DNA of 25,904 bases, taken from the IMG/VR virus record IMGVR_UViG_3300032285_000563, positions 1 to 25,904 of that record, one strand, 5' to 3'. Shown piece after piece: positions 1,601 through 15,645 of this stretch. The first letter of the stretch is position 1. The number at the start of each line of letters is the position of its first letter. A program made the position numbers and the translations under genes. The notes beneath the pieces are model-generated. The model searched no databases. It was given only the letters and a program-made list of their open reading frames with translations, and was not told the origin of the DNA. Source of the stretch: a virus.

Positions 1601-2647
1601 TTAAATTACAAATGTAAAAATGCCTGCTGTTACAAGTAACAACACGCCCCATGTTCCTAGAGCCTTATAATAAGTGCTGATAGGTGTACCGAAATAACGA
1701 TTACCGATCATGACGCACTTATGCGTTGGGCTTACAAGATAACCAGCAAAGTCAATAGCAAAGAACCAGAGGAAATATTCTACCCCAAATACCTGTGCCA
1801 TTAAGACTGCTACAGCAATAAACTTGCCTGAGCTACCCATTAGGAAGCTGACTACAAAACCAATAACTGAAATTGCTAACATACCGACAAATGTATGTGG
1901 ATCTAATCCAACACCTTTGATCATAGTTAGGAATTCTCCGTTATATGATTTAAAATAGTTACCTAAGATAATAACTGCACCGACCCATGCTAAGACATCC
2001 CAACGAATGTAACCTAGCAGTTTGCTAAGACTCCACTGTTGTGTAATGATTACATAGTATAAGGTCAGTAGACCAAAAATTGCAAATACATGATTTTCTC
2101 CACCTGCCCAAATGTAAACGCCAAGGGCGATAAACATTGGTAGCACGTTTCGCAAAACAGCCGACAATTTAAAGTTTCCCGGAGTGATCACTAGTTCTTC
2201 ATCCTTTACCTGCGTCCAAATATAGCCGCTGATAAACAATAAACTAACAATCAACAAGGGTGCAACTAGGCCAATAAATGCACTGTAAGTTAATCCAAAT
2301 GCCGCAATAGGTAAGATTACAGTTTTTTCTAACGGCGACCACATATAATAGTGATGCGTTGCTAGATAATCTATAATTCCCATCTTCTCGCGACCGTGAC
2401 CACACTTAGGTGCTACTGTATCAAGCAGACCTGCTGACACAGTGACTCGGCCTTCGATTGGTAATATACCACCAATCGCACTTAGGATAACAACTACGAA
2501 CTTGTTACTTCTGAATGTGTTTCTTACATAGGCAAATGCTGGGGCGAACAGAGAGTACTCTTTTGCTAGTCCAGCAGTGATCATAATGAAGAATATCATC
2601 CACAAGTATGAAATGTCCTTTAACAGGACAGTTGTGATGAAGTCCAT
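1601..2647 (-). CDS. Polytopic inner-membrane protein, DUF401/ion-transporter-like permease
   Basis: The ATG at 2647 is chosen because AAAGGAG lies 5 bases before it; a longer frame from a GTG at 2668 would translate the ribosome site itself (LFKGEK). The product is about 348 residues, mostly hydrophobic, with some eight to ten membrane segments (for example around YLWMIFFIMITAGLA, FVVVILSAIGGILP, PLLIVSLLFISGYI, WGVLLLVTAGIF). Conserved-looking loops are PIEGRVTVSAGLLD, a central HHYYMWSPLEK, and a late LVSPTHKCVMIGNRYFG, which resembles the SPLHLCL..T.YF segment I associate with DUF401, a family placed near Na+/H+ antiporters and other ion transporters. Substrate and direction are unknown. 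It heads a two-gene operon with the outer-membrane barrel. A host-derived auxiliary transporter is the likeliest reading. Confidence 0.7.
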   Translation of the reverse strand: MDFITTVLLKDISYLWMIFFIMITAGLAKEYSLFAPAFAYVRNTFRSNKFVVVILSAIGGILPIEGRVTVSAGLLDTVAPKCGHGREKMGIIDYLATHHYYMWSPLEKTVILPIAAFGLTYSAFIGLVAPLLIVSLLFISGYIWTQVKDEELVITPGNFKLSAVLRNVLPMFIALGVYIWAGGENHVFAIFGLLTLYYVIITQQWSLSKLLGYIRWDVLAWVGAVIILGNYFKSYNGEFLTMIKGVGLDPHTFVGMLAISVIGFVVSFLMGSSGKFIAVAVLMAQVFGVEYFLWFFAIDFAGYLVSPTHKCVMIGNRYFGTPISTYYKALGTWGVLLLVTAGIFTFVI

Positions 2648-2659
2648 CTTTTCTCCTTT

Positions 2660-2682
2660 AAAAAGCACTATAATTATAGTGC
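2660..2682 (-). terminator. Stem-loop plus T run before the permease gene
   Basis: Read on the minus strand, an exact 18-base palindrome GCACTATAATTATAGTGC (7-bp stem, AATT loop) is followed at once by TTTTT and then by the AAAGGAG of the permease gene. This has the form of an intrinsic terminator for the upstream oxygenase gene, or of a leader hairpin. The stem is AT-rich and so weak. On the plus strand there is no T run, so it would act only leftward. Confidence 0.5.
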
Positions 2683-2713: not shown

Positions 2714-3250
2714 TTATTTTGCGTAAACATATTGCGGTCCATCGATTTCAGCGAAATTACCAGAAACACTGATTCTAATTTCATCACCTCTGTTCTTACT
2801 TACGCTATGATTCATCCATCCGGGAAATACAACTAGATGATTTTCTTTAGGTTGCACAGAACATTTAAATCGATCAAAGAACCAAAATGTTAAATCGCCA
2901 CTGCCGGGCGGAACCTTAACATAATATACCCATGCATATGGACTAATTCCGTGATTATGTGTGTTGGTACTTTCAAGTGGTCGATGGATTTGGCCCCAAG
3001 CGTGTTCGGTTTTAAAGTTTTTCAGCGCACCAATTTCGTCGGCCGCTTTTATTAGCTTTTCAGTTTCACTACCGGGTACTGGATCGATCTTGCTATCTTC
3101 ACTTAAATTATTATTAGGATCATCACTCATGCGAACTTCAATAAATTTCAATACTTCTTCAGCTAGTTTATTGTTGTCGATATTTTCTATTAGATACTGT
3201 CTAGCAGTTAGTTCAAGTAGAGTAAAATCTTTAATGAATTTATGTGTCAT
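2714..3250 (-). CDS. 2OG-Fe(II) oxygenase-type protein (PF13759-like)
   Basis: This is a 178-residue protein with the core of a small double-stranded beta-helix oxygenase. Visible motifs are H98-N-H100 before a strand (WVYYVKVP), then LVVFPGWMNHSV with H148, and R159 eleven residues later in RISVSGNF. The distal His and Arg match the iron ligand and 2-oxoglutarate anchor of the family; the HxH in place of HxD is shared with four other proteins in this window and so is a subfamily trait rather than decay. Residues 1-80 are helical and specific to this protein. The enzyme type couples oxidation of 2-oxoglutarate to hydroxylation or a related oxidation; the substrate is unknown. It is a lone gene, divergent from the next oxygenase and flanked by the two copies of a repeated promoter-like motif. 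Confidence 0.75.
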   Translation of the reverse strand: MTHKFIKDFTLLELTARQYLIENIDNNKLAEEVLKFIEVRMSDDPNNNLSEDSKIDPVPGSETEKLIKAADEIGALKNFKTEHAWGQIHRPLESTNTHNHGISPYAWVYYVKVPPGSGDLTFWFFDRFKCSVQPKENHLVVFPGWMNHSVSKNRGDEIRISVSGNFAEIDGPQYVYAK

Positions 3251-3254
3251 GGAA

Positions 3255-3273
3255 TATTTATTGGTGTAAATAC
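3255..3273. promoter_or_regulatory. Divergent promoter-like site, copy B of the 19-base motif
   Basis: This sits in the 28-base gap between two divergent oxygenase genes. The minus strand has AATAAATA and the plus strand has TGTAAATACC, each one base from a T4-type late box extended by AC. Both boxes lie within about 10 bases of a start codon and no Shine-Dalgarno is seen on the plus side, so any transcript would have almost no leader. Copy A lies at 2687-2705 (16 of 19 identical). Confidence 0.35.
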
Positions 3274-3278
3274 CATGT

Positions 3279-3818
3279 ATGAAAATTTTATCAAATCTTA
3301 TATCTCCAGACGAATGTGCTATTTTGGCAAAAGCTGTACAAGAACAATCTGTTAATAAAACAGGTGATAGCCTAGTTCCTATATCTCATAGTGCATACGG
3401 TCTAAGTGAGACTGAAGATCTACTGCTAAATCTAACAGAAAAAATCAGTTATATTACAAATAAATCACTAGTTCCTACTTACAGTTATTCGAGGGTGTAT
3501 TTGAAAGGTGCTAATATGCCTAATCATACAGATAGACCAGCTTGCGAATACAGTCTAAGTATAAGACTAGCCGGAGATGAGTGGCCGTTATGGTTTGATA
3601 TAGGCATACCGACACCTGTACAATTAGAAATAGGCAGTGGCATATTATATCTTGGAATGGAAATTCCTCATTGGCGTGAAGCATTTACAGGAAATAGCTG
3701 TACACAAGTATTTTTACACTGGGTTGATGCTGACGGTCCTTTCGCTGATTGGCGATTTGATAGAAGACCTAGTATAGGATCTAAAGAAAGTGAAAAAGTC
3801 TATTTAGGTAAGAGTTGA
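3279..3818 (+). CDS. 2OG-Fe(II) oxygenase-like protein, HxD type
   Basis: The product has 179 residues. A canonical HxD is seen at H83-T-D85 within LKGANMPNHTDRPACEYS, preceded by the strand YSYSRVYL, and a distal histidine at H131 in GMEIPHWREAF after GSGILYL. No arginine lies at the usual distance after H131; R133 or residues in QVFLHW may serve. This pattern is common in unnamed proteins of marine T4-like phages and I take it as a distinct 2OG oxygenase subfamily from its neighbours. It is a plus-strand gene alone between minus-strand genes, with its last 19 bases overlapping the opposing oxygenase. No clear ribosome site precedes the ATG. The substrate is unknown. Confidence 0.7.
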   Translation: MKILSNLISPDECAILAKAVQEQSVNKTGDSLVPISHSAYGLSETEDLLLNLTEKISYITNKSLVPTYSYSRVYLKGANMPNHTDRPACEYSLSIRLAGDEWPLWFDIGIPTPVQLEIGSGILYLGMEIPHWREAFTGNSCTQVFLHWVDADGPFADWRFDRRPSIGSKESEKVYLGKS

Positions 3819-4417
3819 CAATCCCAAGCTAGCACACGCCGATTGCCCAATCCTTGCCATGGATATACTTGATGCGGTAACCAACTAGGAAATACTAACA
3901 TCGTACCTACAGTAGGTTTGACATGTAGGAATCTTAAAAATTTTGGATCTGATGTTTTATCAAATACAAAACTTATACATCCATCAGTTTCTGCACTAGT
4001 ATCTTTAAATTCAGGAACTTCTAAATATAAATTACCAGAAATAGCACCATACGGATGTGTATGTGTCACTTGATAACTATTCTCTGGCTGGGTGATAGTC
4101 CAAGCATTAAACAATTTAGGCATTAGGTTCAAGTCACCCCATCCGGATTGTTTAAAGATAGACTCTTGATAAGCTCTTGCCTGCTGTTCGATCCATTCAA
4201 CTAACCAACTTATGTCAGAAATGCTTGGCCATACCCTACGTTGTTGGCCGCCACGGAGTGTTAGGTATTCATTTACAGGATAATCTTCTTCTGTAGATGA
4301 TGTCATAAACAAATTCTTACTTAGATTATCAATGTTATCTAGTAAACTTCCGTCTACATTCACACGAGCTATTGCGATAGGATTAAAAAATTTACAATCC
4401 ATCTTTAACATATACAT
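3800..4417 (-). CDS. 2OG-Fe(II) oxygenase (PF13759-like)
   Basis: The longest reading gives 205 residues. Motifs follow the family order: H119-T-H121 followed by AISGNLYLEVP, then TMLVFPSWLPHQV with H182, and R193 eleven residues on in RRVLAWD. Together these are the expected iron-binding positions and 2-oxoglutarate anchor. Three in-frame ATGs lie close together (4417, 4411, 4402) and none has a strong ribosome site; the one at 4402 would begin MDCKFFNP and is equally plausible. The 5' end overlaps the upstream oxygenase by 26 bases, so the two are a coupled pair. An oxidising enzyme acting on an unknown substrate in the infected cell is the likely role. Confidence 0.78.
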   Translation of the reverse strand: MYMLKMDCKFFNPIAIARVNVDGSLLDNIDNLSKNLFMTSSTEEDYPVNEYLTLRGGQQRRVWPSISDISWLVEWIEQQARAYQESIFKQSGWGDLNLMPKLFNAWTITQPENSYQVTHTHPYGAISGNLYLEVPEFKDTSAETDGCISFVFDKTSDPKFLRFLHVKPTVGTMLVFPSWLPHQVYPWQGLGNRRVLAWDCQLLPK

Positions 4418-4931
4418 CCATTACTAGGATGCTCCTAGGTTCTTTACAGGGTCTACTGTTGTGTACTACATAAGCTGGCATACTTAACCACTTACCTGGA
4501 TATAAAGATTCAATATGTGCAAATCCATATCCCTGTCCCATTGCTATAGGGCGAGGATCTTGTATTACTATTTCACTTTTGCCAATAAGATTAATAATAA
4601 TTGTATAGACCTTTGCTACACCAACTGTATGAAAATGTGGATCTTGATATCCGCCGGTAGAATAGTCTACAGTCCATATGTTCTTAGTTCTAACAAAACC
4701 TATTTCTTCTTTAATTTCATTAAGTACCGGAGATAGCATTTCTAGCCAATCAGGAACAGGCTCTCCGTTTTTAAAGATATATTGCCAACCGTCCTGGGTC
4801 GTAGATTCGGAAGCACCTTTTGAATCTAATTCTTTTTTAAACTTTACCCATTCTGTATACTTGCTGATAACTTTATCAGGAAATTCAATATTTCCAGTAT
4901 ATACTGGGGTAACAAATAAGTCTGCTCTCAT
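4392..4931 (-). CDS. 2OG-Fe(II) oxygenase-type protein
   Basis: This 179-residue protein opens with DLFVTPVYTG, resembling the opening strand of small phage 2OG oxygenases. H99-F-H101 (DPHFHTVG) precedes strands YTIIINLIG and IVIQDPRP; a distal H157 sits in AYVVHNSRP and R166 in RSILVMDVYV nine residues later. The order and spacing fit the fold, though the loop after the first histidines lacks the SGxYY seen in the PF13759-like proteins here, so it belongs to a different branch. It heads a two-gene leftward unit with the 3800-4417 oxygenase and is divergent from the first halogenase across a 44-base gap. No strong ribosome site is visible before the ATG. Substrate unknown. Confidence 0.7.
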   Translation of the reverse strand: MRADLFVTPVYTGNIEFPDKVISKYTEWVKFKKELDSKGASESTTQDGWQYIFKNGEPVPDWLEMLSPVLNEIKEEIGFVRTKNIWTVDYSTGGYQDPHFHTVGVAKVYTIIINLIGKSEIVIQDPRPIAMGQGYGFAHIESLYPGKWLSMPAYVVHNSRPCKEPRSILVMDVYVKDGL

Positions 4932-4975
4932 ATCAATAAGTAGTTATCTATTCTCGATGTAGGATAATTACTATT
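4932..4975. promoter_or_regulatory. Divergent intergenic region before halogenase 1
   Basis: Forty-four AT-rich bases separate the divergent oxygenase and halogenase starts, so both promoters should lie here or just inside the genes. AGGAT at 4961-4965 is a weak ribosome site, 10 bases before the halogenase ATG. I find no good TATAAATA box on either strand. Confidence 0.35.
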
Positions 4976-6565
4976 ATGATTAAACCATTAAACAAAATAG
5001 TAATAGTCGGCGGTGGTAGTGCAGGCTGGATGACAGCTAGTTTGCTGATTAAAGAATTTCCAAACAAGGAAATAGTGTTAGTTGAAAGCCCAAATGTTCC
5101 AATCGTAGGAGTAGGAGAAAGCACACTGGCACATATTAACGATTTTGTTCAATATTTAGAAATTGATGAAAAAGACTTTATGTCTTTTACCAATGCCAGT
5201 TATAAATTAAGCATTAAATTTACAGACTTTTATGAAAAAGATGCAGGCGGGTTTCATTATCCGTTTGCTATGCCTGTGTTAGAAGATACTGTAGATGGCC
5301 TACAAGATTGGTTTTATAAAAAATCATTATATCCAGAAACACCAGTAACTGACTTTGTTCAGTGTTATTATTCTGCTAGTGCTCTTTTTGAAAATAACAA
5401 ATACAGTGAAAACAAGGATGGCAAATTTTATAGATACGATCCAAAATTTCATGCCGCATATCACTTTGATGCTGTTAAATTTGGAGAATGGTTGCGAGAG
5501 CGTTATGCTGTACCTCGTGGTGTAGTACATATACTAGGCGATGTTGACAATATTAAAACAGGCGATAAGGGCATTGAACATCTAGTTCTATCTGATGGTA
5601 GTCAAATAGAAGCAGATTTATTCATTGACTGCACTGGATTTAAAAGTCTGTTGCTAGGGCAGGCATTAGACGAACCATTTGATAGTTATAGCGATATGTT
5701 GCCTAACAACAGAGCATGGGCGACGCAAGTACAGTATAAGGATAAAGAGAAAGAATTAGAACCTTTTACAAACTGTACTGCTATCGGTAACGGATGGGTT
5801 TGGAATATTCCCTTATGGAGTAGACTTGGTACAGGATATGTCTATAGTGACAAGTATACAACACCAGAAGCCGCCAAAGAAGAATTTAAACAGTACCTAA
5901 TGAGCGATAAGGTCGTATGTCCTAAGACTAAAGAAGAAGTTGACAATTTAGAATTCCGCGATATTCAAATGCGAGTAGGCATACACAAACGCACTTGGGT
6001 CAAAAACTGTGTGGCTATTGGACTCGCTGCCGGCTTTATTGAACCATTAGAGTCTAATGGATTATTCAGTGTTCATGAATTTTTATTCAAGTTGATAAAA
6101 AGTCTACAACGTCCAGCAGTTACACAATGGGACATAGATGTGTATAATGCTAGTTGTTTGAATATTTTTAGAAATTTTGCAGAATTTGTAGCACTACACT
6201 ATGCATTGAGTGTACGCAATGATACTGAATACTGGCGAGCCAATAGTAGTAGAACCTATAGTCCAGGCCTGCCATATTTAGAACCTCAAAGTTTTCAAGG
6301 ATTCTACGAACTACAACATATAAAAATGTTTACTGCTAGAGCGCCGATGAGTGCAGGAATTACTCGTATAGCAGTAGGGATGAATTATCCCCTATTAGAT
6401 AATGTCACTAGGATACATCAAGAAAATAGAGATAGTATCAGTTACAAAGAAAAATACAAAGAATCTTTTGAAACATTTGAAAAGAAAAAAGAATACTGGG
6501 CAAAGTTAGCTGAAACTGAACCAACCTTGTACCAGTACTTAAAAGATAACGTTTATAAAAATTAA
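4976..6565 (+). CDS. Flavin-dependent tryptophan halogenase-family protein 1
   Basis: The 529-residue length fits flavin-dependent halogenases. All hallmarks are present: the FAD-binding GGGSAGW at residues 12-18, VGVGEST at 44-50, the catalytic lysine K77 at the place of K79 in PrnA, FIDCTGF at 216-222, the signature W274-x-W276-x-I278-P279, and FIEPLES at 354-360 with the glutamate and serine that line the PrnA chlorination tunnel. Enzymes of this kind use FADH2, oxygen and halide to form HOX and halogenate an electron-rich ring; a reductase partner normally supplies FADH2 and none is seen here. The cyanophage Syn10 halogenase VirX1 is a known viral relative that prefers iodide. Substrate and halide are not deducible. 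It is transcribed alone rightward and its stop shares a TTAA with the opposing operon's last gene. Confidence 0.9.
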   Translation: MIKPLNKIVIVGGGSAGWMTASLLIKEFPNKEIVLVESPNVPIVGVGESTLAHINDFVQYLEIDEKDFMSFTNASYKLSIKFTDFYEKDAGGFHYPFAMPVLEDTVDGLQDWFYKKSLYPETPVTDFVQCYYSASALFENNKYSENKDGKFYRYDPKFHAAYHFDAVKFGEWLRERYAVPRGVVHILGDVDNIKTGDKGIEHLVLSDGSQIEADLFIDCTGFKSLLLGQALDEPFDSYSDMLPNNRAWATQVQYKDKEKELEPFTNCTAIGNGWVWNIPLWSRLGTGYVYSDKYTTPEAAKEEFKQYLMSDKVVCPKTKEEVDNLEFRDIQMRVGIHKRTWVKNCVAIGLAAGFIEPLESNGLFSVHEFLFKLIKSLQRPAVTQWDIDVYNASCLNIFRNFAEFVALHYALSVRNDTEYWRANSSRTYSPGLPYLEPQSFQGFYELQHIKMFTARAPMSAGITRIAVGMNYPLLDNVTRIHQENRDSISYKEKYKESFETFEKKKEYWAKLAETEPTLYQYLKDNVYKN

Positions 6566-7302
6566 CGACTAAAGAAGTGTTTTAGATACATTGCCTTTGA
6601 CAAGTTTCGTTTAAAGGCAAACGATAATCCGAAGAAATACTGACGTTTCTTCATCCATGCTAGCTCTTTTTCTGTAGCAGTTCCTACTTCCATTTTAAAT
6701 GTTTCATTTGTTAGTGGTACTAGCTGACACATAGGTGTACCTGCTTTTAACAAATGTTGACCATCTAATATACTCCACCAACCCTGCGGGTTAATTTCAG
6801 TACTATAACCTGGATCTAGTAATCCGATATTATGTTGGAATACAAATGAATCAGGGTACGGTAATGGAATGATTAAAAATTTTACATCTGGTGGTGCAAT
6901 TATATGCCAAGGTGTATGGAATTTAACAATAGATTTTAAAACTCCTGGAGGTTTAGGAATAACCTTCGCTAGTCCTCGGGCCATATGTCCTGCAACTGGA
7001 GGGCCGCCGTACAAGTCTGGAATGATATTTGTAGGAACTGACCATTTAAAGTCTTCACCATCTCCTTTAGTTTCGACCATTACGTCCCAAGGCATAGGTA
7101 CGATATAACCAGTGCTCATTAGATCAAAAATTCCAGGACATCTGTAGACGTGATTAAACTTTTCACCTTCTGATTGTTTTTTCACTTGCAAATACTCATC
7201 TCTTGCGGCGGTAATCCAAGATGGTTTATATTCGTCAGCTGGAATAATTGGAAACGCTTCAGCAACACCGTCTACGTTAGAAAAAAATCTTATTGTTCTC
7301 AT
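6562..7302 (-). CDS. Conserved-looking protein of unknown function in halogenase operon
   Basis: The product has 246 residues and no signal peptide or membrane segment. It is rich in proline and aromatic residues, with motifs such as FPIIPADEYKPSW near residue 20, YRCPGIFDLMSTGYIVPMPWD near 55-75, and FHTPWHIIAPP near 130. The arrangement of CPG, P-W-D and HTPWHI suggests a beta-rich, cupin-like or DUF6065-like fold, but I cannot assign it with confidence. A C-terminal basic tail ends HFFSR. It is the last gene of the leftward operon, and its start overlaps the preceding oxygenase stop in ATGA, so it is translated with the oxygenases. A role as accessory or substrate-binding partner of the oxygenase/halogenase set is inferred from position only. 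Confidence 0.55.
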   Translation of the reverse strand: MRTIRFFSNVDGVAEAFPIIPADEYKPSWITAARDEYLQVKKQSEGEKFNHVYRCPGIFDLMSTGYIVPMPWDVMVETKGDGEDFKWSVPTNIIPDLYGGPPVAGHMARGLAKVIPKPPGVLKSIVKFHTPWHIIAPPDVKFLIIPLPYPDSFVFQHNIGLLDPGYSTEINPQGWWSILDGQHLLKAGTPMCQLVPLTNETFKMEVGTATEKELAWMKKRQYFFGLSFAFKRNLSKAMYLKHFFSR

Positions 7303-7880
7303 GTTCTTATCTTCATGTTAAACGCTATATTGATGCGTTCTCTTTCGTTCATATTAACATCAACTTCATGTGGCATCCAACTTGGAAACATTATTAAATC
7401 TCCATCTTTGGGTGTGAACAAGAAATCTCTAGTAAATGGACTGTTTTCATTACAGTCTCCTAGTATATTTGCTGGGTTTGGAAATCTTAAATCTCCAGTA
7501 CCTGTACCTTGCAAATAATAAACACAGCTGAATTCACTTACCGCATGTGTATGAAATACATTTCTACTATATTGACTATTAATGTTGACCCACCAAGTTA
7601 TTGAAACATTTTTGGGACGTTTTAAATCTCTAAAAGTTGCATCTAAGGTACTATAGTAGTATACACTCTCTGTTAGGGTAGTGTCAATCGCATCGAACAA
7701 CCATTCCATTTCTAGTTTTGGCTCTAATATTCTATAGCATCCATAGTTAGAGTCGTTCATAGATGGCGTTACTTTTTGTATTTCTTTAATATCATTTAAT
7801 AATTTCAATCGCTGTTCCTCAGTACCCACATTTGGTACTGTAAATACTTCTGCTTGAAATGCCGTCTTATGAGTAATCAT
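7299..7880 (-). CDS. 2OG-Fe(II) oxygenase (PF13759-like), tandem copy 2
   Basis: This protein has 193 residues. H110-T-H112 is followed by SCVYYLQG; DLIMFPSWMPHEV carries H171, and R182 eleven residues later lies in RINIAFNM. The N-terminal part (EVFTVPNVG, then helices) is typical of the small phage members. It matches the next gene upstream in length (193), in the position of the first histidine pair (110/112) and in the H-x10-R spacing, so the two look like an old tandem duplication with strongly diverged sequence. Start and stop both sit in ATGA overlaps, giving translational coupling on each side. A hydroxylase-type oxidation is expected; the substrate is unknown. Confidence 0.82.
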   Translation of the reverse strand: MITHKTAFQAEVFTVPNVGTEEQRLKLLNDIKEIQKVTPSMNDSNYGCYRILEPKLEMEWLFDAIDTTLTESVYYYSTLDATFRDLKRPKNVSITWWVNINSQYSRNVFHTHAVSEFSCVYYLQGTGTGDLRFPNPANILGDCNENSPFTRDFLFTPKDGDLIMFPSWMPHEVDVNMNERERINIAFNMKIRT

Positions 7881-8458
7881 CGTAAGTTAAACGCAACACT
7901 AATGCGTTCTCCTATTGTTTCATTGATATTTACACGGTGTACTAACCAACTAGGAAATAATATAATGCGTCCAGTCTTTGGTCTATAGCTTACTGCATCA
8001 ACAGCTATGCGATCGCTTGGAAATCCTCCAAACTGCATATGCGGGTTAGGGGTTTGAAATCTAATTTTGCCATCGCTTTCTGTTGCGCAATAATAATATA
8101 CTCCCGAAATTCTATTTTGAGGATGTGTATGATCGTATTGAAAATCATTGGCTTGATAAAAATTGAACCATGACTCAGTTAATTTAAAATCTGGATCAGG
8201 ATATTTGATATTATTACAATAACTATTAACAGCTTCTAGTATTGCAGAATGTAATACTTGTAGTCCGTAGTGTTCAACATCATTTACCGAATGCTCTTTG
8301 CTAAATGTTGTTTCAACACTATCTCCCCAAGGGCTAGTTTTCTTGTCAGTTGAAATACTATCAATAGAATTTTTAATTTCCTGTTGTATTGCGTCTAACT
8401 TTTCTATAGAAAAATCGTGTACAAATAACGGAACTGAAAACCAATATTCAACTGACAT
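7877..8458 (-). CDS. 2OG-Fe(II) oxygenase (PF13759-like), tandem copy 1
   Basis: This 193-residue protein begins with WFSVPLFVHDF, a usual opening for the family. H110-T-H112 is followed by RISGVYYY; RIILFPSWLVHRV carries H174, with R185 eleven residues later in RISVAFNLR. These are the expected iron ligands and 2-oxoglutarate anchor, with HxH in place of HxD as in its relatives here. The start overlaps the halogenase 2 stop by one base (TAATG) and the stop overlaps the next oxygenase start, so halogenase 2 and the two oxygenases should be made together. The substrate is unknown, but the tight coupling suggests the three act in one pathway. Confidence 0.85.
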   Translation of the reverse strand: MSVEYWFSVPLFVHDFSIEKLDAIQQEIKNSIDSISTDKKTSPWGDSVETTFSKEHSVNDVEHYGLQVLHSAILEAVNSYCNNIKYPDPDFKLTESWFNFYQANDFQYDHTHPQNRISGVYYYCATESDGKIRFQTPNPHMQFGGFPSDRIAVDAVSYRPKTGRIILFPSWLVHRVNINETIGERISVAFNLR

Positions 8459-9972
8459 TATTCTGAACTATACCAATCTTTTAAAAATTCATAGTGGTTA
8501 GGGAATATTTCTTTAATCAGTTCAACTCGATGTGTTTGATTTTTAACAAAATATTCAGCATATTTTTCAACATCGCCTGCTACTTGTCTAGGATTATTAT
8601 CATAAACTCCACCGGCATTAAGTACACTAAACCAATGGCCTACATGGAAGCTAGAAGTAGGATGTACGAAAAACTCTCTGTTAGGCTTAGGAACAAACTT
8701 ACCGACAAAATCTAAAACTTTCTGCGGCATCATATCGTCTGTTTGTTGGCGTATGCTATTCCAGAACAGGGTATCATTTTTAGTGCTAAAGTGATAGTGT
8801 GCCCAGACAAATGCTACAATCTCCCAAAACATGATATCGTATAGAGAGTTTATTTCACCTTTTAACGGTTGACTCCATATGCCTTGTGTTTTATTTAGGC
8901 CTGCGGTGACTAATTCTACAGCCTTAGTAGTAAATGTGATACCAGTAGCTTCTAATGGTTCAACGAATCCAGCGGCGAGACCAATAGCACATACATTTTT
9001 ATATGCAACGCTATTATGTATACCACATTTCATCTTTAGATGTTTTGCAGGTGCTGTAAATTCACCAATTTTTTCTCTTAGTTCTTTTTCAGCATCTTCA
9101 CTCGACTTGAATTTACTACTGTAAACATATCCATTTCCTACTCTTTGAAATGTTGGGATAGTAAACATCCATCCGGCATCCATAGCAGTTGCTTTGGTAT
9201 ATGGAAAACATTCTTCTTCTGGATTAGTATATTGAGTAGGAATTACTACTGCACTATCGCAAGGTAGTATGTCATTCACTGATGTAAATTCTACTCCTAG
9301 TTTTTTCTCTAGTAAAATGCTTGCGAACCCGGTACAGTCTAAGTATAAATCAGCTGAGTACTTGTTGCCGTCTTCGTCTATTAAAGCGGTTACCCCTTCT
9401 TCGTTTGTTTCGACATCTTTAATCATAGTATTAACATAATTAATACGTTTAAGCACTATGCTTTTGATAGTTTCTAATATATCATATGCACCAAAGTGTA
9501 CAGCACCGAACTGTCTGTATCCAGTCTGGGCATAATTAGTATCCATGCCTGCTAGCTTAGGACTCTTGTTTGCTTTTGCAAGTTGGTATGCAGGCAACCA
9601 ATTGAAGAATTCTTTCTTATCTTTACCTACAAAATAATCTGTAGTAAATAAATTAGGAGCAATGATAGTATTTTCAATAAAATCGTTTTCTACAAAATAC
9701 GGTTCATCATTCCAACCTTCAAATTCAACACCTAGTTTAAATGTAGCATTACTAGGCTTCATCCAAGTCTTAGGATCTATGCCGCAATCAAACATAAATC
9801 TCGCAGTAGCAGGTTGTGTTCCTTCACCAACACCGATAGGGCCGAGATCCTTACTTTCAATTAAGGTAATCTCGCAGGGGAATTGTAAATTATTTGTAAT
9901 ATAGGCAGCGGTTAGCCAGCCGCTAGTGCCTCCGCCAAATATGATTATTTTTTTAACTTTGTTAATTTTCAT
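8458..9972 (-). CDS. Flavin-dependent tryptophan halogenase-family protein 2 (variant signature)
   Basis: This 504-residue relative of flavin-dependent halogenases has the FAD motif GGGTSGW at residues 13-19, GVGEGTQP at 47-54, lysine K79 (the same number as the PrnA catalytic lysine), LDCTGF at 211-216, and FVEPLEAT at 337-343. Two signature positions differ from the first halogenase: W268-M-F270-T-I272-P273 has Phe for the second Trp of WxWxIP, and A342 replaces the serine after the tunnel glutamate E341. The enzyme could still be a halogenase with another substrate or halide, or a flavin monooxygenase. It is in the middle of the leftward operon, overlapping both neighbours (ATGA and TAATG). 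Sequence identity to halogenase 1 looks modest, so the two were probably acquired or diverged long ago. Confidence 0.85.
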   Translation of the reverse strand: MKINKVKKIIIFGGGTSGWLTAAYITNNLQFPCEITLIESKDLGPIGVGEGTQPATARFMFDCGIDPKTWMKPSNATFKLGVEFEGWNDEPYFVENDFIENTIIAPNLFTTDYFVGKDKKEFFNWLPAYQLAKANKSPKLAGMDTNYAQTGYRQFGAVHFGAYDILETIKSIVLKRINYVNTMIKDVETNEEGVTALIDEDGNKYSADLYLDCTGFASILLEKKLGVEFTSVNDILPCDSAVVIPTQYTNPEEECFPYTKATAMDAGWMFTIPTFQRVGNGYVYSSKFKSSEDAEKELREKIGEFTAPAKHLKMKCGIHNSVAYKNVCAIGLAAGFVEPLEATGITFTTKAVELVTAGLNKTQGIWSQPLKGEINSLYDIMFWEIVAFVWAHYHFSTKNDTLFWNSIRQQTDDMMPQKVLDFVGKFVPKPNREFFVHPTSSFHVGHWFSVLNAGGVYDNNPRQVAGDVEKYAEYFVKNQTHRVELIKEIFPNHYEFLKDWYSSE

Positions 9973-11654
9973 TTTCTAATTACCAATATATAAAGACCGT
10001 TCCACCACTCACGGCTATTTTCTTCGCTGTTTATCATCAATTTTTTATAAGCTATTGTAGCACCGCAGTGATCCAATGCCGCTAGCGTTGCATCAACTAC
10101 TCCGTCCCAGTTAGCATCATCCATGATGATAATAGCTTCTTCAGTTAGTGTACTGTAATAGTATGTTATCGCTTGGAATGTTGAATCAGGATCGTGCGGG
10201 CCATCATAGAATAGCATCTGTACTGTATTGGCTAAACTTGCTGTATTTACATCGAATAAATTGCTATCGATTACTGTAACATTAGAAGAACCTACAAATG
10301 GTTGTATATTTTTTTCAAACTCTTCTTTGCTGTTTGCTGGTAATTGTATATTTTTATTTTTAGGCTGTATTTGATCTTTCCAATTGTCAACAAAATAGGC
10401 ATTGATAGGATTATCTTTTAATACAGCACTAGCAGTAGCACCTAGGTACGAACCAATTTCTAAATAACTGCCCACACCTTGTGCAATAAGATTCAATAGT
10501 GTCTGCACTCGCGGACTTGTTAATCCTGGAATCTTATTGTGTACTGTAGGTATACCTGATCTTGCCACAGCATCTACTACATGATTAACTAGATCAGATT
10601 GATATAGTTCGGATTTTTTATCATAAATTTTATCGCAGTATTGACATTCCCAACAGTCAAATTTACAATTTTTAATTTTTTCTCGCCATAGCGTAATAGG
10701 CTTGCCAGCTAGTCCGCTTTCTTCAGACCATCTTTCAAATCCTGCTGGTACGAATTCTTCTCCTGCTACAAATCTATCGATCCATACCATTGTTTCTTTT
10801 AGTCTTGCAAGGTCTTCTCTACCATGCATCTTAAAAACATCTATACCTAGATCTAAATATTCTATCCAGTCTTCTCTCCAAGGACTAAAATTAGCTGACT
10901 TTAGCGGTACTGCTAGATCTTCAATTTCCCATTTTGGACAACTTACTCGACTTATAGGGTTATTAAAATATTGAGGATCTTCTTTAGTGCGAATGTTATT
11001 ATACTCAAAATGTTCGACCATCATAGAACATGCTCCTAGACAACCTTCATTGGCTAGCAGACTATATTGTATGTCCTTGCCTAGATTTTCTTTGATCCAT
11101 ACCTTGGCTTCTTTCAATCGTAATAGTGTATCTCTATCACGCATTAGATCTCTATCTAGATTAATATAATCAAATCCATACTTGGCTAGATTGACTATCT
11201 CTACCGCAGTCCTTACTTCACGTAATATTGTATTTTTTACAAATAATTCAGGAAATGCGGATTTAATCTGTCCAGTGGCCATCCAATGTGTATGCGGAAT
11301 CGTAGCAGTACGTATTCCTGCATCATACAATTTCTTAAAATTAATGATAAAGGTATCTAAGTTTGTCTGGGTCGGCGGAACTGTAGTATTATTAAACGTA
11401 GCACTGATAGGGATTCCGAGATGCTGTTGAATATCTAATGCATTTTGAATTATATCCGTATGATGTTCTTCTAATACGAATACATCTCCCATGGCATCTT
11501 GTTTAAAAGGTGCAATGCGACTGGTAAAATAAATGTCTGAAATCCAATCTTTATTGCGTTCACAAAATTGATAAAACTCTATAAACTGTTGCTGATTTAA
11601 TTTAGGATTAAGTGGAACACTAAAAATCTTCCTTGCTTTAAAATTTAATTGCAT
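9969..11654 (-). CDS. U32-type Fe-S barrel protein fused to SAM-dependent methyltransferase
   Basis: This 561-residue protein has two parts. Residues 1 to about 345 look like a peptidase-U32-type TIM barrel: a repeated strand/helix pattern, LLANEGCLGACSM with C205 and C209, C239 in RVSCPKW, LGIDVFKMHGRED near 269-281, and a closing CX3CX2CX2C (C330, C334, C337, C340). Known U32 proteins (UbiU/UbiV, RlhA, TrhP) act in oxygen-independent hydroxylation and some bind a 4Fe-4S cluster through cysteines. Residues about 370-561 form a class I methyltransferase: YLEIGSYLG at 397-405 is the SAM loop, with VDNW at 422-425, FYDGPHD at 482-488 and a possible metal/acidic MDDANWDGV at 511-519. Hydroxylation followed by O-methylation in one polypeptide is an inference. 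Both ends overlap neighbouring genes in the operon. Confidence 0.75.
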   Translation of the reverse strand: MQLNFKARKIFSVPLNPKLNQQQFIEFYQFCERNKDWISDIYFTSRIAPFKQDAMGDVFVLEEHHTDIIQNALDIQQHLGIPISATFNNTTVPPTQTNLDTFIINFKKLYDAGIRTATIPHTHWMATGQIKSAFPELFVKNTILREVRTAVEIVNLAKYGFDYINLDRDLMRDRDTLLRLKEAKVWIKENLGKDIQYSLLANEGCLGACSMMVEHFEYNNIRTKEDPQYFNNPISRVSCPKWEIEDLAVPLKSANFSPWREDWIEYLDLGIDVFKMHGREDLARLKETMVWIDRFVAGEEFVPAGFERWSEESGLAGKPITLWREKIKNCKFDCWECQYCDKIYDKKSELYQSDLVNHVVDAVARSGIPTVHNKIPGLTSPRVQTLLNLIAQGVGSYLEIGSYLGATASAVLKDNPINAYFVDNWKDQIQPKNKNIQLPANSKEEFEKNIQPFVGSSNVTVIDSNLFDVNTASLANTVQMLFYDGPHDPDSTFQAITYYYSTLTEEAIIIMDDANWDGVVDATLAALDHCGATIAYKKLMINSEENSREWWNGLYILVIRK

Positions 11655-12244
11655 TATACGCCTTTACCTAGAAATTCAATCCAGCCTGTTATTATATATT
11701 TTTCGCCACTTAGTGGAGGATTACCACGATGTGTATGTGTAAAACCAGCAGGCCAAATTACGATCCTACCTGCTTTTGCTGATACTCTACGTTTTTGATA
11801 TAGATATTCTGTTTCGCCACCATGCTCGACATCATTCAAGTATAGTGTCCAAGTACATATTCTTGTCGATACCTCTGTTGCGGCAGATTCAAAATGCCAC
11901 TGATGATATCCTTGGCCTGCCAGTGTTTTTTGCAGTCGGGCACTCATGATACCGTGCATTTCTATATCTGCTAGGATACTAAACTGCTTAACATAATCAT
12001 CATAGCAACCCCAAAACTTTTCAAGAAAGGTATCCATTACTGGATTTTTCTTATGTAAAGGTAATGTATTGTGTTGTAGTAAGAAGACAGTTTCATCTTC
12101 TTTTATATGACGATGGCCGTCTTTGAGCTTTTGTCTAGTATGAGATAAATCTAGAGCTTTTAAATTTTCAAAATAGTCAATGTATATTTGACACTCTTGT
12201 GGTGTTAAAACATTATCCCAAATACCAACGAAATCTTCAAACAT
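11654..12244 (-). CDS. 2OG-Fe(II) oxygenase, prolyl-4-hydroxylase-like, with HxE
   Basis: The 196 residues fit a minimal P4H domain. W116-H117-F118-E119 (after GQGYH) gives HxE where HxD is usual; CTWTLYLND and GGETEYLY follow; distal H172 (in FTHTHRG) is followed ten residues later by K182, the His-to-Lys spacing used by prolyl-4-hydroxylases to bind 2-oxoglutarate. Glu can replace Asp in some relatives, so activity is plausible though not certain. Possible substrates are proline or lysine residues in a protein, for example one of the Thr/Pro-rich phage fibre proteins, but nothing shows this. GAGGGTG before the ATG is a fair ribosome site. Its stop and the next gene's start share TAATG; 26 bases separate it from the preceding oxygenase. 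Confidence 0.82.
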   Translation of the reverse strand: MFEDFVGIWDNVLTPQECQIYIDYFENLKALDLSHTRQKLKDGHRHIKEDETVFLLQHNTLPLHKKNPVMDTFLEKFWGCYDDYVKQFSILADIEMHGIMSARLQKTLAGQGYHQWHFESAATEVSTRICTWTLYLNDVEHGGETEYLYQKRRVSAKAGRIVIWPAGFTHTHRGNPPLSGEKYIITGWIEFLGKGV

Positions 12245-12276
12245 GCGACACCCTCTTATAAGGCAAGTATTTACAC
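12245..12276 (-). promoter_or_regulatory. Candidate internal promoter before the P4H-like gene
   Basis: On the minus strand, GTGTAAATAC (12267-12276), identical to ten bases of the divergent site at 3264-3273, overlaps the stop of the upstream oxygenase. It is one base from a T4-type late box and lies about 23 bases before the ATG at 12244, with GAGGGTG as ribosome site. This is the only real gap in the 12.9-6.6 kb operon. Confidence 0.35.
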
Positions 12277-12873
12277 TATGGGGTCGATTTTAAAGTTAAA
12301 AGTGATAGCTATGCGTAGCGGATGCTGTGTTGGGTAGGAACTACAGTGATAGTGCTTGCCATTAAAAGCTACTATCCTACCTTGTTTTGGTTTTACTTTG
12401 CGTTTTATAGTTAACTCAGCGTTGACTATTTGATCTTCTGTGTAATCGTCAAATGTTTCATTATACAGAATGAAATCGCCATCAGAATCATTAACATAAT
12501 AAACTGCTGTCCAGTGTTCAAAGGTAGCATCTGTGTGCGCTCCGTGGGGCGAAGCGTTTGGATGCATCGTAAACAGTCCTGCTCGTACACGATTCATAGC
12601 AGTTATCCTAAATCTATCTCTAGTGGCTTCTTCGAAGTATCGTAAGATTGGCCATACTGCTGGAAGGTCTTCTGATTTTTTCTCACCAGCATACATCATG
12701 TTATGGAAAAAACCTACTGCATCAAGTTTTTCTGGACTGGTAGTTTTACCATAAACTGAGCTTAAAGAAAGGCTCCAGGGAAAACTAGGATGGGTGAATA
12801 ACTGTTTAAGTTTTTCTTGCTCTTCTACTGGAAGGAAATCATCTAATTCGATATAGTCTTTAGATAAAATCAT
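12271..12873 (-). CDS. 2OG-Fe(II) oxygenase, HxD type
   Basis: This 200-residue protein carries a complete 2OG oxygenase set: H113-T-D115 in HGAHTDATFEHW, the strand AVYYVND, GDFILYN, then KPKQGRIVAFNGKHYHCSS with distal histidine H174 or H176, and R187 in RIAITFNF as the 2-oxoglutarate anchor. This is the most canonical member of the set here. The opening YIELDDFLPVEEQEKL is typical of P4H-like and related phage oxygenases. Start and preceding stop share ATGA with the unrecognised 191-residue gene, linking the tailoring operon directly to the genes that follow the structural block. The substrate is unknown. Confidence 0.85.
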   Translation of the reverse strand: MILSKDYIELDDFLPVEEQEKLKQLFTHPSFPWSLSLSSVYGKTTSPEKLDAVGFFHNMMYAGEKKSEDLPAVWPILRYFEEATRDRFRITAMNRVRAGLFTMHPNASPHGAHTDATFEHWTAVYYVNDSDGDFILYNETFDDYTEDQIVNAELTIKRKVKPKQGRIVAFNGKHYHCSSYPTQHPLRIAITFNFKIDPIV

Positions 12874-13445
12874 TGACTCATTAAATTAGCAGTAGGGCCC
12901 CAGTTGTAAATTTGTGGTATATCTAAACAAGCTGTTGCAAAATCAAATTTTATATGCATTAATTTTCTGCAATCCATAGTAGTAGCACACGCATCAATTT
13001 CTTTTAAAAGAGATTGTTTGTAATCAGCATTAAGATCTGCAAGATCTTGACTAATTACTTTTCGATAGTGATAGTCTAATTCTAATTTCATGATAGTTTT
13101 CATAAAATTAATTTGATCTACTATGTCTTCTTCCGTTAGTGTATAGTGTACTTTAGGTTTTCTTGAATGATGTTCGAGGCTGGCATGCATGAGTTCTTCA
13201 TGTATTGCAGAACCTTCTAATATTCCAAGTTTGTCTTCGTGATTTGCCTTGCCAAACTTTGCGCCACGGGCTGTAGCTTCGGAAACTTCTACATGTACTA
13301 TACCAGAAAGATCAACAGATCCTACGTTTGCAGGATCGATGTAGGCAACATCCCAACGTCCAAAACTATACTGATCTAAAAATTCTACTGTTCCGTTAGT
13401 TTTTAGAGGATGATTAAATCCAACATTTTCAAGTATTATAAACAT
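12870..13445 (-). CDS. Unrecognised 191-residue protein
   Basis: I do not recognise this protein. It is soluble, with no signal peptide or membrane segment. Residues 1-65 are beta-rich (IVHVEVSEAT), then comes a His/Glu-rich segment near residues 80-100 (SAIHEELMHASLEHH) that could bind metal, followed by long helices (EDIVDQINFMKTIMKLELDYHYRK) and a C-terminal part with cysteines (ACATTMDCRK, TACLDIP). Its start overlaps the upstream 314-residue gene by 17 bases and its stop overlaps the first oxygenase gene in ATGA, so it bridges the structural block and the tailoring operon. A chaperone, adaptor or assembly factor role is possible but not shown. Confidence 0.6.
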   Translation of the reverse strand: MFIILENVGFNHPLKTNGTVEFLDQYSFGRWDVAYIDPANVGSVDLSGIVHVEVSEATARGAKFGKANHEDKLGILEGSAIHEELMHASLEHHSRKPKVHYTLTEEDIVDQINFMKTIMKLELDYHYRKVISQDLADLNADYKQSLLKEIDACATTMDCRKLMHIKFDFATACLDIPQIYNWGPTANLMSQ

Positions 13446-14373
13446 CTAAAAGATCTCCGCTCGCTTTATTTGGTGCTTCGTTATCGATAACTGTACTATT
13501 GCTTTCGCCAAGCTGGCCAACACTTTCTGCAATCGGTACAAGATTATTAATATGAAATTCGATCTTATCAAGATCTTCTATTCTTTTACCTTGCATTAAG
13601 GCCGCGTACTGTTGATCCGTTGCTAGTAATTTATTATGAACATCCATTCGAATAGCAGAACTTAAACTTTCTAGACGTAGTGTAATTTCATGCATCAATG
13701 CCATAGATTCGCGTTGCTGAGGTTCTGGCATTTGTAACATAGCATCTAGGTTACCAGCACCCACACGACCGTATGAAGCATAATCCATAGCACATTGACG
13801 TGCTAATCGTACAGTCCAGTAGTGTGCTTCCCAATAGTTTTCTTCGTCTGTGTTACCAAATACTTCCATCCAACTACGACCATCTGGGGTTTTTCCATTA
13901 GGTCCTTCAAGATATTCGTTGATCAACTCGAGGTATTGTTCGCGTTCGATATAATGCTGACCAGCACGACGTTTATTTTGATAAAAGTCGTGATTGATCT
14001 TGTTTAAATCTAATTTGATCTTAGCACGTTCTAGTGGATCTGTTTCGCGTTCTAGTCTTAGTTCGCAAATTTCTTTTTCTAGTTCATGTTTTCTAAGCAA
14101 AGTTTCAAAATTTTCACAATTTTCTTCGATGCTTTTTAATTCTAACAGCCATTGTCTAACTGTGCTATAAGGTGTTAGTTGTCCGCTAGTTACAAAATGT
14201 TTCATCTTGTACTTAGGATTTAAGAATTGGGCATTAAGTGCTGTTTCAACCATACGCTTCTGGTCAGCTGACAGCATCTTTGTATCAGTCGTAGTTGAGT
14301 CTTTTGATTTCCACTCTTTGTACTTTTCAAAAAGATTTACACTATTATTTGATTGTGTGCTTAATTCAGACAT
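13429..14373 (-). CDS. Unrecognised 314-residue coiled-coil protein
   Basis: The ATG follows AGGAAAAAAC, a fair ribosome site. The protein is soluble and highly charged. Residues about 70-135 form a long helical, probably coiled-coil, stretch rich in E, K, L and R (LRKHELEKEICELRLERE). This is followed by SWMEVFGNTDEENYWEAHYW near residue 170 and further helices to about 285, then a polar tail. No enzyme motif is seen. It lies directly after the tail-fibre-type genes on the same strand and before the unrecognised 191-residue gene, overlapping it. Position suggests a virion assembly or fibre-associated role, but this is inference. I cannot match it to a named T4 protein. Confidence 0.6.
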   Translation of the reverse strand: MSELSTQSNNSVNLFEKYKEWKSKDSTTTDTKMLSADQKRMVETALNAQFLNPKYKMKHFVTSGQLTPYSTVRQWLLELKSIEENCENFETLLRKHELEKEICELRLERETDPLERAKIKLDLNKINHDFYQNKRRAGQHYIEREQYLELINEYLEGPNGKTPDGRSWMEVFGNTDEENYWEAHYWTVRLARQCAMDYASYGRVGAGNLDAMLQMPEPQQRESMALMHEITLRLESLSSAIRMDVHNKLLATDQQYAALMQGKRIEDLDKIEFHINNLVPIAESVGQLGESNSTVIDNEAPNKASGDLLDVYNT

Positions 14374-14409: not shown

Positions 14410-15645
14410 TTAATCTCTCCAACCCATATGTCCAGAACTGGCTCCGCCGTGTCCTTTTGGTTCTTGTGTACCGCCGTTTTGACTTCCTGAGTCAGTTGAA
14501 TAGGTAAATGTATATGAACGATTGTTCTGTCCTGATGGATCGTGTTCCCCCATCATGTATCCTTTGTTCTGACCCATACCAAAGTTTTCTTCTCCGTAGC
14601 CCCAGCCGCCCGGTTTACCGATGTTACCAGCACCTGATTCACTAGCAATGTTAGTCTTACGGAAGTTGTAACCACCTGAATAACTACCTTCGTTACCACC
14701 ATAACCATAACCAGTCTTAGCCATTAAGCCTTTCTGCTGTCCATGTGCGCCAGATGAATGTCCCATGTTGGCAATACTATCTGTTGGGAAATAGACACGC
14801 TGAGTCTGTGCTGAATTACCCCAGAAAATACCACGATCTGATCCCGAGATACTTGCCGCATGGTCGTTCCAACCGTTACCTAAGTTAGCTTGGCTTTCAC
14901 TAGACAAGTTAAATTTGTTGATAGTACCAGTACCTTCACCTGTTACATAAGCATAGTTGCGTTCCCAGAATGCCGTACCGTTGTTACCACCACCACCTGC
15001 GTTATTACCAGAAACAGATTTACTTTCTGTACGCATGTTAAAGCCTGTTGGGCCGCCGTTCCAGATATAGATCTTATTGTAGCCACTAGCACCTGATTTG
15101 TAGTGATAGTTATCAACTAGGCCATCGCCTAGGTTAACTGCGGTATCATTAGATTGCGTTAGTCTATTGGCATTTGACCATAATGAACTACTTTGATACC
15201 CACCAACTAGATAGCCAGTTGTAAGAATCTGTCTATAAGGCCACGGAGCACTTAGAGTAATAGTATAGGAACGATCAGTATAGCTGTTATATCCTGAAGC
15301 ATCAGTAGCACGTACTGTAAAACTATATACGTTGCCGTCTGAATTAATTGCAGAAGCTGTATAAGATCCGGTAACAACACCAGTGCTAGAGTTTAAACTA
15401 AATCCAGGAGGTAATGATCCACTAGCAATAGTATAGTTAATTGCTCCAGAGTAGAACGGATCAAATGTTGCTCTAGTACCTGTTACTGTAGTTGCACTTG
15501 GAGTAAAGTAATCTCCCTGCATAGTCGTAGTTCCCAGAGAACCACTACCACTGCTCGATGCTGTGTCTTGTGGGCCTACACCTGGGTGGTAACCACCCGA
15601 TCCTGTTAGTTCTCTTGAACCACCTGTTGTTCCTAAAATTGGCAT
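14410..15645 (-). CDS. Tail-fibre/adhesin-like protein with Ig-like domain and Gly-rich repeats
   Basis: The start is supported by TAGGAG 8 bases upstream. The 411-residue protein has a Gly/Ser-rich N-terminus (1-45), a putative Ig (He_PIG-type) domain at about 60-132 (LPPGFSLNSSTGVVTG, YSFTVRATDASG), then from about 140 a series of roughly 50-residue units of the form GY..GGYQSS..W..NR..Q..D...NLGDG, YAYVTGEGTG..NKFN, and so on, ending in a very Gly-rich tail (GHGGASSGHMGWRD). The repeats resemble those of structural proteins in marine T4-like phages and may fold as a propeller or stacked beta structure. The glycine-rich end recalls receptor-binding adhesins of the gp38 kind in appearance only. 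It belongs to the leftward structural operon and probably sits at the fibre tip. Confidence 0.7.
   Translation of the reverse strand: MPILGTTGGSRELTGSGGYHPGVGPQDTASSSGSGSLGTTTMQGDYFTPSATTVTGTRATFDPFYSGAINYTIASGSLPPGFSLNSSTGVVTGSYTASAINSDGNVYSFTVRATDASGYNSYTDRSYTITLSAPWPYRQILTTGYLVGGYQSSSLWSNANRLTQSNDTAVNLGDGLVDNYHYKSGASGYNKIYIWNGGPTGFNMRTESKSVSGNNAGGGGNNGTAFWERNYAYVTGEGTGTINKFNLSSESQANLGNGWNDHAASISGSDRGIFWGNSAQTQRVYFPTDSIANMGHSSGAHGQQKGLMAKTGYGYGGNEGSYSGGYNFRKTNIASESGAGNIGKPGGWGYGEENFGMGQNKGYMMGEHDPSGQNNRSYTFTYSTDSGSQNGGTQEPKGHGGASSGHMGWRD

Follow-up and report, generated by a model that had tools for sequence, protein, structure and literature searches.

The virus record IMGVR_UViG_3300032285_000563, a linear fragment of 25,904 bases that we analysed whole and call the window, carries between positions 2714 and 12873 eight small oxygenase-type genes (A, B, C, D, G, H, K and L), two halogenase genes (E and I), a gene for a fusion enzyme (J) and one further gene, F; an initial annotation had listed the same set, and its coordinates match our gene calls. 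We propose, at a probability of roughly one half, that these genes form a tail-fibre tailoring island of T4-like aquatic phages that would oxidise, methylate and halogenate a fibre or adhesin, a reading drawn from the genes alone. Across relatives, the putative fibre gene O, the small genes N and M, and J make up a conserved block, to which a gene for a DUF401-type membrane protein, oxygenases of the PF13759 type, F and a halogenase are added stepwise. The window holds the largest set of this series, with a second, VirX1-like halogenase and further oxygenases. What is new is the architecture and a testable substrate, not the gene families.

A conserved block behind one fibre gene

Genes F to L form a minus-strand run (12873-6562) with 4-base (ATGA) or 1-base (TAATG) overlaps at all junctions except 12244/12271, which bears out the seven-gene operon first described. 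Upstream, the run extends by a 4-base overlap into M (12870..13445, minus strand), a small conserved protein that keeps its position between fibre and J, and then by a 17-base overlap into N (13429..14373, minus strand), a phrog_1409 protein behind the fibre gene. Beyond M and N lie the co-directional fibre-type proteins O to R, beginning with O (14410..15645, minus strand), a phrog_1417 'sericin-like' putative fibre or adhesin with repeats and our proposed substrate. E and B are inverted relative to the run.

Window proteins were placed by Pfam and PHROG scans. Phage records held no near DNA match to the window. Related loci came from F and J scans (for J, the best 80 of more than 550 matches) and were mapped with profiles built here, iteratively, out of the same loci; counts are over non-redundant J loci, 66 with upstream sequence and 67 for downstream genes. 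The five genes upstream of J included O in 64 of the 66 loci; N was upstream in 64/66, all three of O, N and M preceded J in 61/66, and the J-drawn sample alone gave O upstream in 46/48. Two small genes are the usual spacing from fibre to J. Downstream, 36 of the 67 loci carry a halogenase, 48 a PF13759-type oxygenase, 48 F, and 31 the DUF401 gene within six genes. The core order, phrog_1417 fibre, N, M, J, halogenase (where present), 2-oxoglutarate (2OG) oxygenase, F and DUF401, is kept over dozens of contigs. It is preserved in relatives that share 40-77% protein identity, which shows that the genes did not come together by chance. In twelve close contigs halogenase 2 (I), G and F/D are shared and J precedes them wherever the contig extends; the more distant ones have DUF401 directly after. 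J distances correlate with those of the halogenase (Mantel r 0.81), F (0.78), N (0.74) and O (0.74). Core order over dozens of contigs and correlated distances agree with the initial annotation in pointing to a coupled set, not isolated auxiliary genes.

The relatives form a graded series, from J without other recognised enzymes (e.g. L189-L195) through J with DUF401 (L209-L226) and J with 2OG, F and DUF401 (L100-L111) to loci that add the halogenase and, finally, the full set of this window. On the J tree the halogenase loci form one group, requiring one change, and the halogenase is retained in 36/36 lineages: a single acquisition followed by complete retention. A PF13759-type oxygenase is present in all 36 halogenase loci and F in 33/36. 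The co-occurrence of halogenase and oxygenase, which the initial annotation had proposed to test, is seen (Fisher p 8e-11), but since the halogenase was gained once, these counts are not independent events and the p value is not evidence of repeated ones. The periphery (the second halogenase, A, B, C, H and K/L) varies in presence, strand and order, so the idea of a fixed 'full pathway' is not supported. Independent gain and loss without conserved order, which had been named as what would speak against a pathway, describes this periphery; it does not describe the core, for which the earlier view stands.

Since dozens of relatives keep the core together with this one fibre gene, the most probable target is the phage's own host-binding fibre, not host metabolism. 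The tail-fibre region could instead be a cargo hot-spot that gathers auxiliary genes, its oxygenases and halogenases acting on unrelated host metabolites or regulating 2-oxoglutarate. The variable presence and strand of the peripheral oxygenases and of halogenase 1 (E) would fit such a hot-spot, as would the petE and gnd genes that share the S-ShM2 interval, and metabolic roles have been proposed before: modulation of 2OG/NtcA (Sullivan 2010, PMC3037559), antibiotic-type halogenation for S-CREM1 (PMC9964418) and metabolic reprogramming for S-SCSM1 (PMC9602691). However, core order is kept down to ~40-50% identity, including the two small genes between fibre and J; the distances of J, halogenase and F are correlated; the halogenase was lost in 0/36 lineages; and no biosynthetic scaffold genes are present with the set. 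We consider the hot-spot account unlikely. The preferred reading of a fibre target is supported by the position of O upstream of J in nearly all loci, by the graded series with its single, retained halogenase, and by the conservation of catalytic residues described below.

The same neighbourhoods in isolated phages

The block of fibre, two small genes and J occurs in the same order in the isolates Syn33, P-RSM1, P-HM2 and S-H25, which also supports the fibre reading. The GC351-GC354 block of Syn33, P-HM2 and S-H25 matches the window in its sericin-like fibre protein, two small genes and J, often with a 2OG gene mislabelled denV (S-H25 reads O, M/N, J, 2OG, DUF401); unlike the window, it has no halogenase or F inside. 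Profiles of M and N partly cross-match, so the labels of the two small genes are possibly swapped in cyanophages.

Further support comes from an independent group (Syn10, S-CREM1 and Sf-FP1) that places halogenase, F and 2OG genes behind fibre-type or collagen-like genes. In Syn10 and P-TIM40 a pair of adjacent halogenase genes is followed by F and, after it, 2OG genes, which corrects the earlier statement that cyanophages carry single halogenases; S-CREM1 and Sf-FP1 combine a single halogenase with F and 2OG genes. The VirX1 locus of Syn10 (and syn9) shares with the window a second halogenase, F and a 2OG run after fibre genes, and window halogenase 1 is 38% identical to the 530-aa Syn10 halogenase. 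It differs in that a 13.6-kb stretch of Syn10 gave no J, N, M or DUF401 match, and window halogenase 2 is only ~30% identical to either Syn10 copy. S-CREM1 (PMC9964418) likewise has a collagen-like gene, halogenase, F and ~eight 2OG genes in one direction, but one halogenase and, in the stretch examined, no J match. Given these sets and the 24 2OG genes counted in S-SCSM1 (PMC9602691), batteries of this size are already present in sequenced isolates. In the literature searched, whose coverage is incomplete, we found no link of these genes to fibre modification; the viral halogenase has been treated as a biocatalyst (PMC8407142).

Two intact halogenases

Halogenase 1, E (4976..6565, plus strand), is an inverted add-on that matches PF04820 at 2.8e-106 and carries GxGxxG, K77, WVWNIP and E359; the core halogenase 2, I (8458..9972, minus strand), matches the same profile at 3.5e-93 and carries GxGxxG, K79, WMFTIP and E341. 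Profile, flavin adenine dinucleotide motif, Lys and Glu place both among the flavin-dependent tryptophan halogenases, and G12-14/G13-15, K77/K79 and E359/E341 are conserved in 90-99% of 68 relatives. The catalytic Lys corresponds to PrnA K79. Both are intact flavin-dependent halogenase genes with predicted activity. The best PDB match of E is VirX1 (6QGM, 366 bits), making it VirX1-type; for I, tryptophan 5-halogenases outscore VirX1 in the PDB search, and it does not belong to that type. E is restricted to the nearest relatives, with varying orientation, and I is the halogenase that follows J in 36/67 loci. The window contains no flavin reductase gene, as had been noted earlier.

In vitro, VirX1 accepts a wide range of free small aromatics for halogenation, and its active site is open (PMC8407142); small phenols are frequent substrates of COMT-type methyltransferases, and the DUF401 membrane protein could export a product. 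These observations would suit a secreted or surface small molecule, in which a host-made aromatic metabolite or a surface glycan or lipid is tailored to block superinfection or protect the infected cell. Yet DUF401 accompanies J also where there is no halogenase or 2OG gene (L209-L226), genes for scaffold biosynthesis are missing and the conserved partners are fibre genes, so that a small-molecule product seems quite improbable.

A human faecal phage scaffold (L061, MT835646.1) carries two Trp-halogenase-like genes and no fibre/J block.

The fusion enzyme J and the dUTPase-fold protein F

J (9969..11654, minus strand) is the hub enzyme, with a Cys-rich, TIM-barrel-like region (residues 1-~345) followed by a class I S-adenosylmethionine (SAM) O-methyltransferase-type region (~370-561). 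Its Pfam match is limited to the C-terminal methyltransferase (PF13578, 5e-9), which is found in 10/10 members, and a PDB search by sequence returned nothing significant. The structure model, at a predicted local distance difference test score (pLDDT) of 67, combines a TIM-barrel-like N-terminal domain with a COMT-type C-terminal domain. Against solved O-methyltransferases the latter scores Z 14-15 (TrmR, 14.1), so profile and modelled fold both indicate a class I SAM O-methyltransferase.

The barrel had first been read as a U32 protein. We found no PF01136 (Peptidase U32) match in 10 members at E up to 5, and the U32 motif E-x7-C-x6-C is present in 0/24 J members; membership of the family is rejected by profile and motif. 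The modelled N-terminal domain does match the U32 protein Mk0906 at Z 12.8, among several unrelated barrels and at a model pLDDT of 67. Seven cysteines (C205, C209, C239, C330, C334, C337 and C340) are invariant from cyanophages to stand-alone bacterial homologues, which stop just past the last Cys; on these grounds J is likely to carry a metal or Fe-S site, with the boundary between its domains near residue 345.

The stand-alone barrel occurs in a few metagenome-assembled genomes of anaerobes or Campylobacterota. On two Campylobacterota contigs it directly precedes outer-membrane efflux, ATP-binding cassette (C39) and HlyD genes, a type I secretion set, and on another bacterial contig it stands beside DUF6445 and radical SAM/SPASM genes. 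This context weakly suggests protein substrates that are exported or surface-exposed, in keeping with a fibre target. In a wider survey the barrel was rare (1/298 and 2/135 genomes), too rare for context statistics.

F (6562..7302, minus strand; phrog_7084) is a partner of phage halogenases and adjoins their genes in Syn9/Syn10, S-CREM1 and Sf-FP1. Scanning with a single F sequence gave no match; an alignment query gave 73 loci. An AlphaFold2 model from 38 sequences (pLDDT 92) matches trimeric dUTPases at Z up to 10.4 over ~115 residues, pointing to a dUTPase-like fold, and conserved Asp residues resemble dUTPase motifs 1 and 3. The best dUTPase Pfam match (E 0.023, in 3/38 members) is below the cut-off, and the F sequence has no Gly-rich C-terminal motif 5, so that profile and motif do not make it a dUTPase and, without motif 5, dUTP hydrolysis is unlikely. 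Nothing significant in the PDB matched F by sequence, no F was found in bacterial genomes with the pattern used, and we found no papers naming DUF6065, its weak Pfam match. Several loci (L091, L097, L162, L170, L187 and others) carry two copies of F, often with a ~137-codon gene between them.

TrhP plus TrmR make mo5U34 in tRNA, and J resembles this pair, and U32 proteins, in joining a Cys-rich TIM-barrel-type domain to a TrmR-like methyltransferase. J might accordingly hydroxylate and methylate a pyrimidine and F act on a modified nucleotide, with further changes to phage DNA or host tRNA or rRNA made by the oxygenases and halogenases. The matches of the modelled J domains to TrmR and Mk0906 and the dUTPase fold of F would fit, and some eukaryotes have a fusion of the hydroxylase gene trhO (yceA) to trmR (PMC6599085). 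Unlike TrhP and TrmR, however, J is a single chain with neither PF01136 nor E-x7-C-x6-C, and its CX3CX2CX2C run is distinct; the TrmR score against it is equalled by many COMT-type small-molecule enzymes; F misses motif 5 and falls under the dUTPase Pfam cut-off; and the neighbours of the block are genes for fibres, not for nucleotide metabolism. Nucleic-acid modification is on balance improbable.

Eight oxygenase-type genes with two kinds of metal motif

The initial annotation had called all eight small genes 2OG-Fe(II) oxygenase-type. All are oxygenase-type by profile or motif, but only three have the canonical motif. K (11654..12244, minus strand; phrog_61, PF13640 3.4e-12) is a prolyl-4-hydroxylase-like 2OG oxygenase with H117-x-E119...H170/H172...K182, and L (12271..12873, minus strand; phrog_274, mislabelled endonuclease V) is a 2OG oxygenase with H113-x-D115...H176...R187. 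The closest PDB sequences to K are prolyl 4-hydroxylases, and it resembles the bacterial enzymes in sequence; it differs from them in HxE and in context. The inverted B (3279..3818, plus strand; phrog_2954, labelled ferrochelatase, 1.6e-43) is probably a 2OG oxygenase as judged by H83-x-D85...H131, a motif invariant in 11 relatives. All three thus show the HxD/E...H facial triad, and in K and L the R/K for 2OG could be assigned as well (K182 and R187).

The other five carry HxH...H in place of HxD/E...H: A (2714..3250; H98-x-H100...H148), C (3800..4417; H119-x-H121...H182), D (4392..4931; H99-x-H101...H157), G (7299..7880; H110-x-H112...H171) and H (7877..8458; H110-x-H112...H174), all on the minus strand. 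A, C, G and H lie above the PF13759 cut-off (A, C and G as PF13759/phrog_81 proteins, H at 1.1e-21 and also above the cut-off of TIGR02466); D is placed via PHROG only (phrog_81, 1.5e-9). Neither B nor D has a Pfam match, and both were placed by PHROG profile and motif. HxH...H is found in 98-99% of 139 phrog_81 members and in the aligned PDB relatives 2RG4 and 3BVC, so it is a family trait; A, C, D, G and H are therefore best called oxygenase-type by family, with likely three-His metal sites and putative use of 2OG. G is a core gene that keeps its position between halogenase 2 and F in relatives; a relative of D belongs to the core of many contigs as a conserved neighbour of F; and H, an add-on, is missing from more distant relatives. 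Catalytic residues are intact throughout the halogenases and oxygenase-type genes and conserved among relatives.

The labels 'DNA endonuclease V' (denV) and 'ferrochelatase' attached to phrog_274, phrog_2297, phrog_2954 and phrog_3531 stand on proteins with intact HxD...H, and are probably misannotations of 2OG-oxygenase-like proteins, propagated over cyanophage records.

A proposed modification of the fibre

Besides O, the other candidate substrate is R (16901..25624, minus strand), a 2907-codon tail-fibre open reading frame (ORF; phrog_9851 tail fiber, 2.8e-87). Among the four substrates guessed at earlier, 'virion protein' is the one that gene context favours, and there is no obvious candidate for a precursor of a ribosomally synthesised and post-translationally modified peptide among window ORFs of at least 60 aa. 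O has internal repeats (hhalign self-alignment E=3e-6, offset ~100 columns) and looks propeller-like; within the halogenase clade it mostly ends in a short motif of the aromatic-Arg-Asp type, and outside that clade its C-terminus is different. Trp/Tyr content of O, taken as a substrate signal, did not differ with or without halogenase. In halogenase-bearing lineages the Met content of O and N is reduced while that of J and M is not, which fits exposure to hypohalite; as the tree shows one halogenase gain, we keep this only as a hint.

On the fibre-tailoring reading, the island would be expressed late, and its enzymes would act in the host on newly made O, or on the long fibre R, before or during tail assembly. 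J may work on one site with both domains, the barrel oxygenating it and the COMT/TrmR-like domain O-methylating it. The halogenases would rely on the host for reduced flavin and a flavin reductase and halogenate aromatic side chains (Trp or Tyr); hydroxylation of Pro, Asp/Asn, Lys or similar residues would fall to the oxygenases. As guesses, F might bind or position a ligand, and DUF401 might move an anion or cofactor. The product would be a host-binding surface of altered chemistry, which might adhere better, be more stable or evade host resistance.

Several points weigh against this proposal. The modification and the enzyme activities are predicted from genes, and the J loci examined lean to close relatives. 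The linkage to the fibre could reflect a cargo hot-spot. In S-ShM2, J is displaced, with 2OG, petE and gnd genes lying in the ~5.7 kb that separate it from the fibre-linked small genes upstream, and in pelagiphage HTVC008M halogenase and 2OG genes lie among neck and terminase genes. The modelled dUTPase fold of F and the likeness of J to a barrel plus TrmR pair would be no less compatible with nucleic acid as the target; the Met difference amounts to one phylogenetic contrast; and the bacterial context rests on two contigs, the barrel being rare there. To our knowledge, the action of flavin halogenases on large folded proteins is not established.

Tentatively, we extend the proposal to T4-like phages at large: they may possess a modular system that oxidises, methylates and halogenates their own receptor-binding fibres after translation, with the fibre-linked barrel/methyltransferase as its foundation; VirX1-type halogenases would then be fibre-modifying, not metabolic. 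Cyanophage halogenases and 2OG oxygenases have long been without a substrate, and the conserved tie to one fibre gene offers a concrete, testable candidate. If true, phage host recognition would work via enzymatically altered side chains, invisible to genome-based host prediction.

Neighbouring genes and relatives

Just outside 2714-12873, a gene at 1601..2668 (minus strand) encodes a DUF401/TIGR00529-type multi-pass membrane protein (PF04165, 2.1e-9; phrog_14035, 7.5e-78; TIGR00529 at 1.9e-14, yet under its cut-off). It is a member of the cassette in relatives, so the earlier remark that the set has no exporter overlooked a candidate. T4-type gp23 was present in 9/11 larger relatives. The contig L136 (PBPE01000072.1), which has the fibre-M/N-J block, was binned as Dehalococcoidia; almost certainly it comes from a phage. 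Adjoining the DUF401 gene, 1034-1591 encodes a small protein that is predicted to be of the outer-membrane beta-barrel type and has a signal-like N-terminus; porin-like proteins encoded by phages are unusual.

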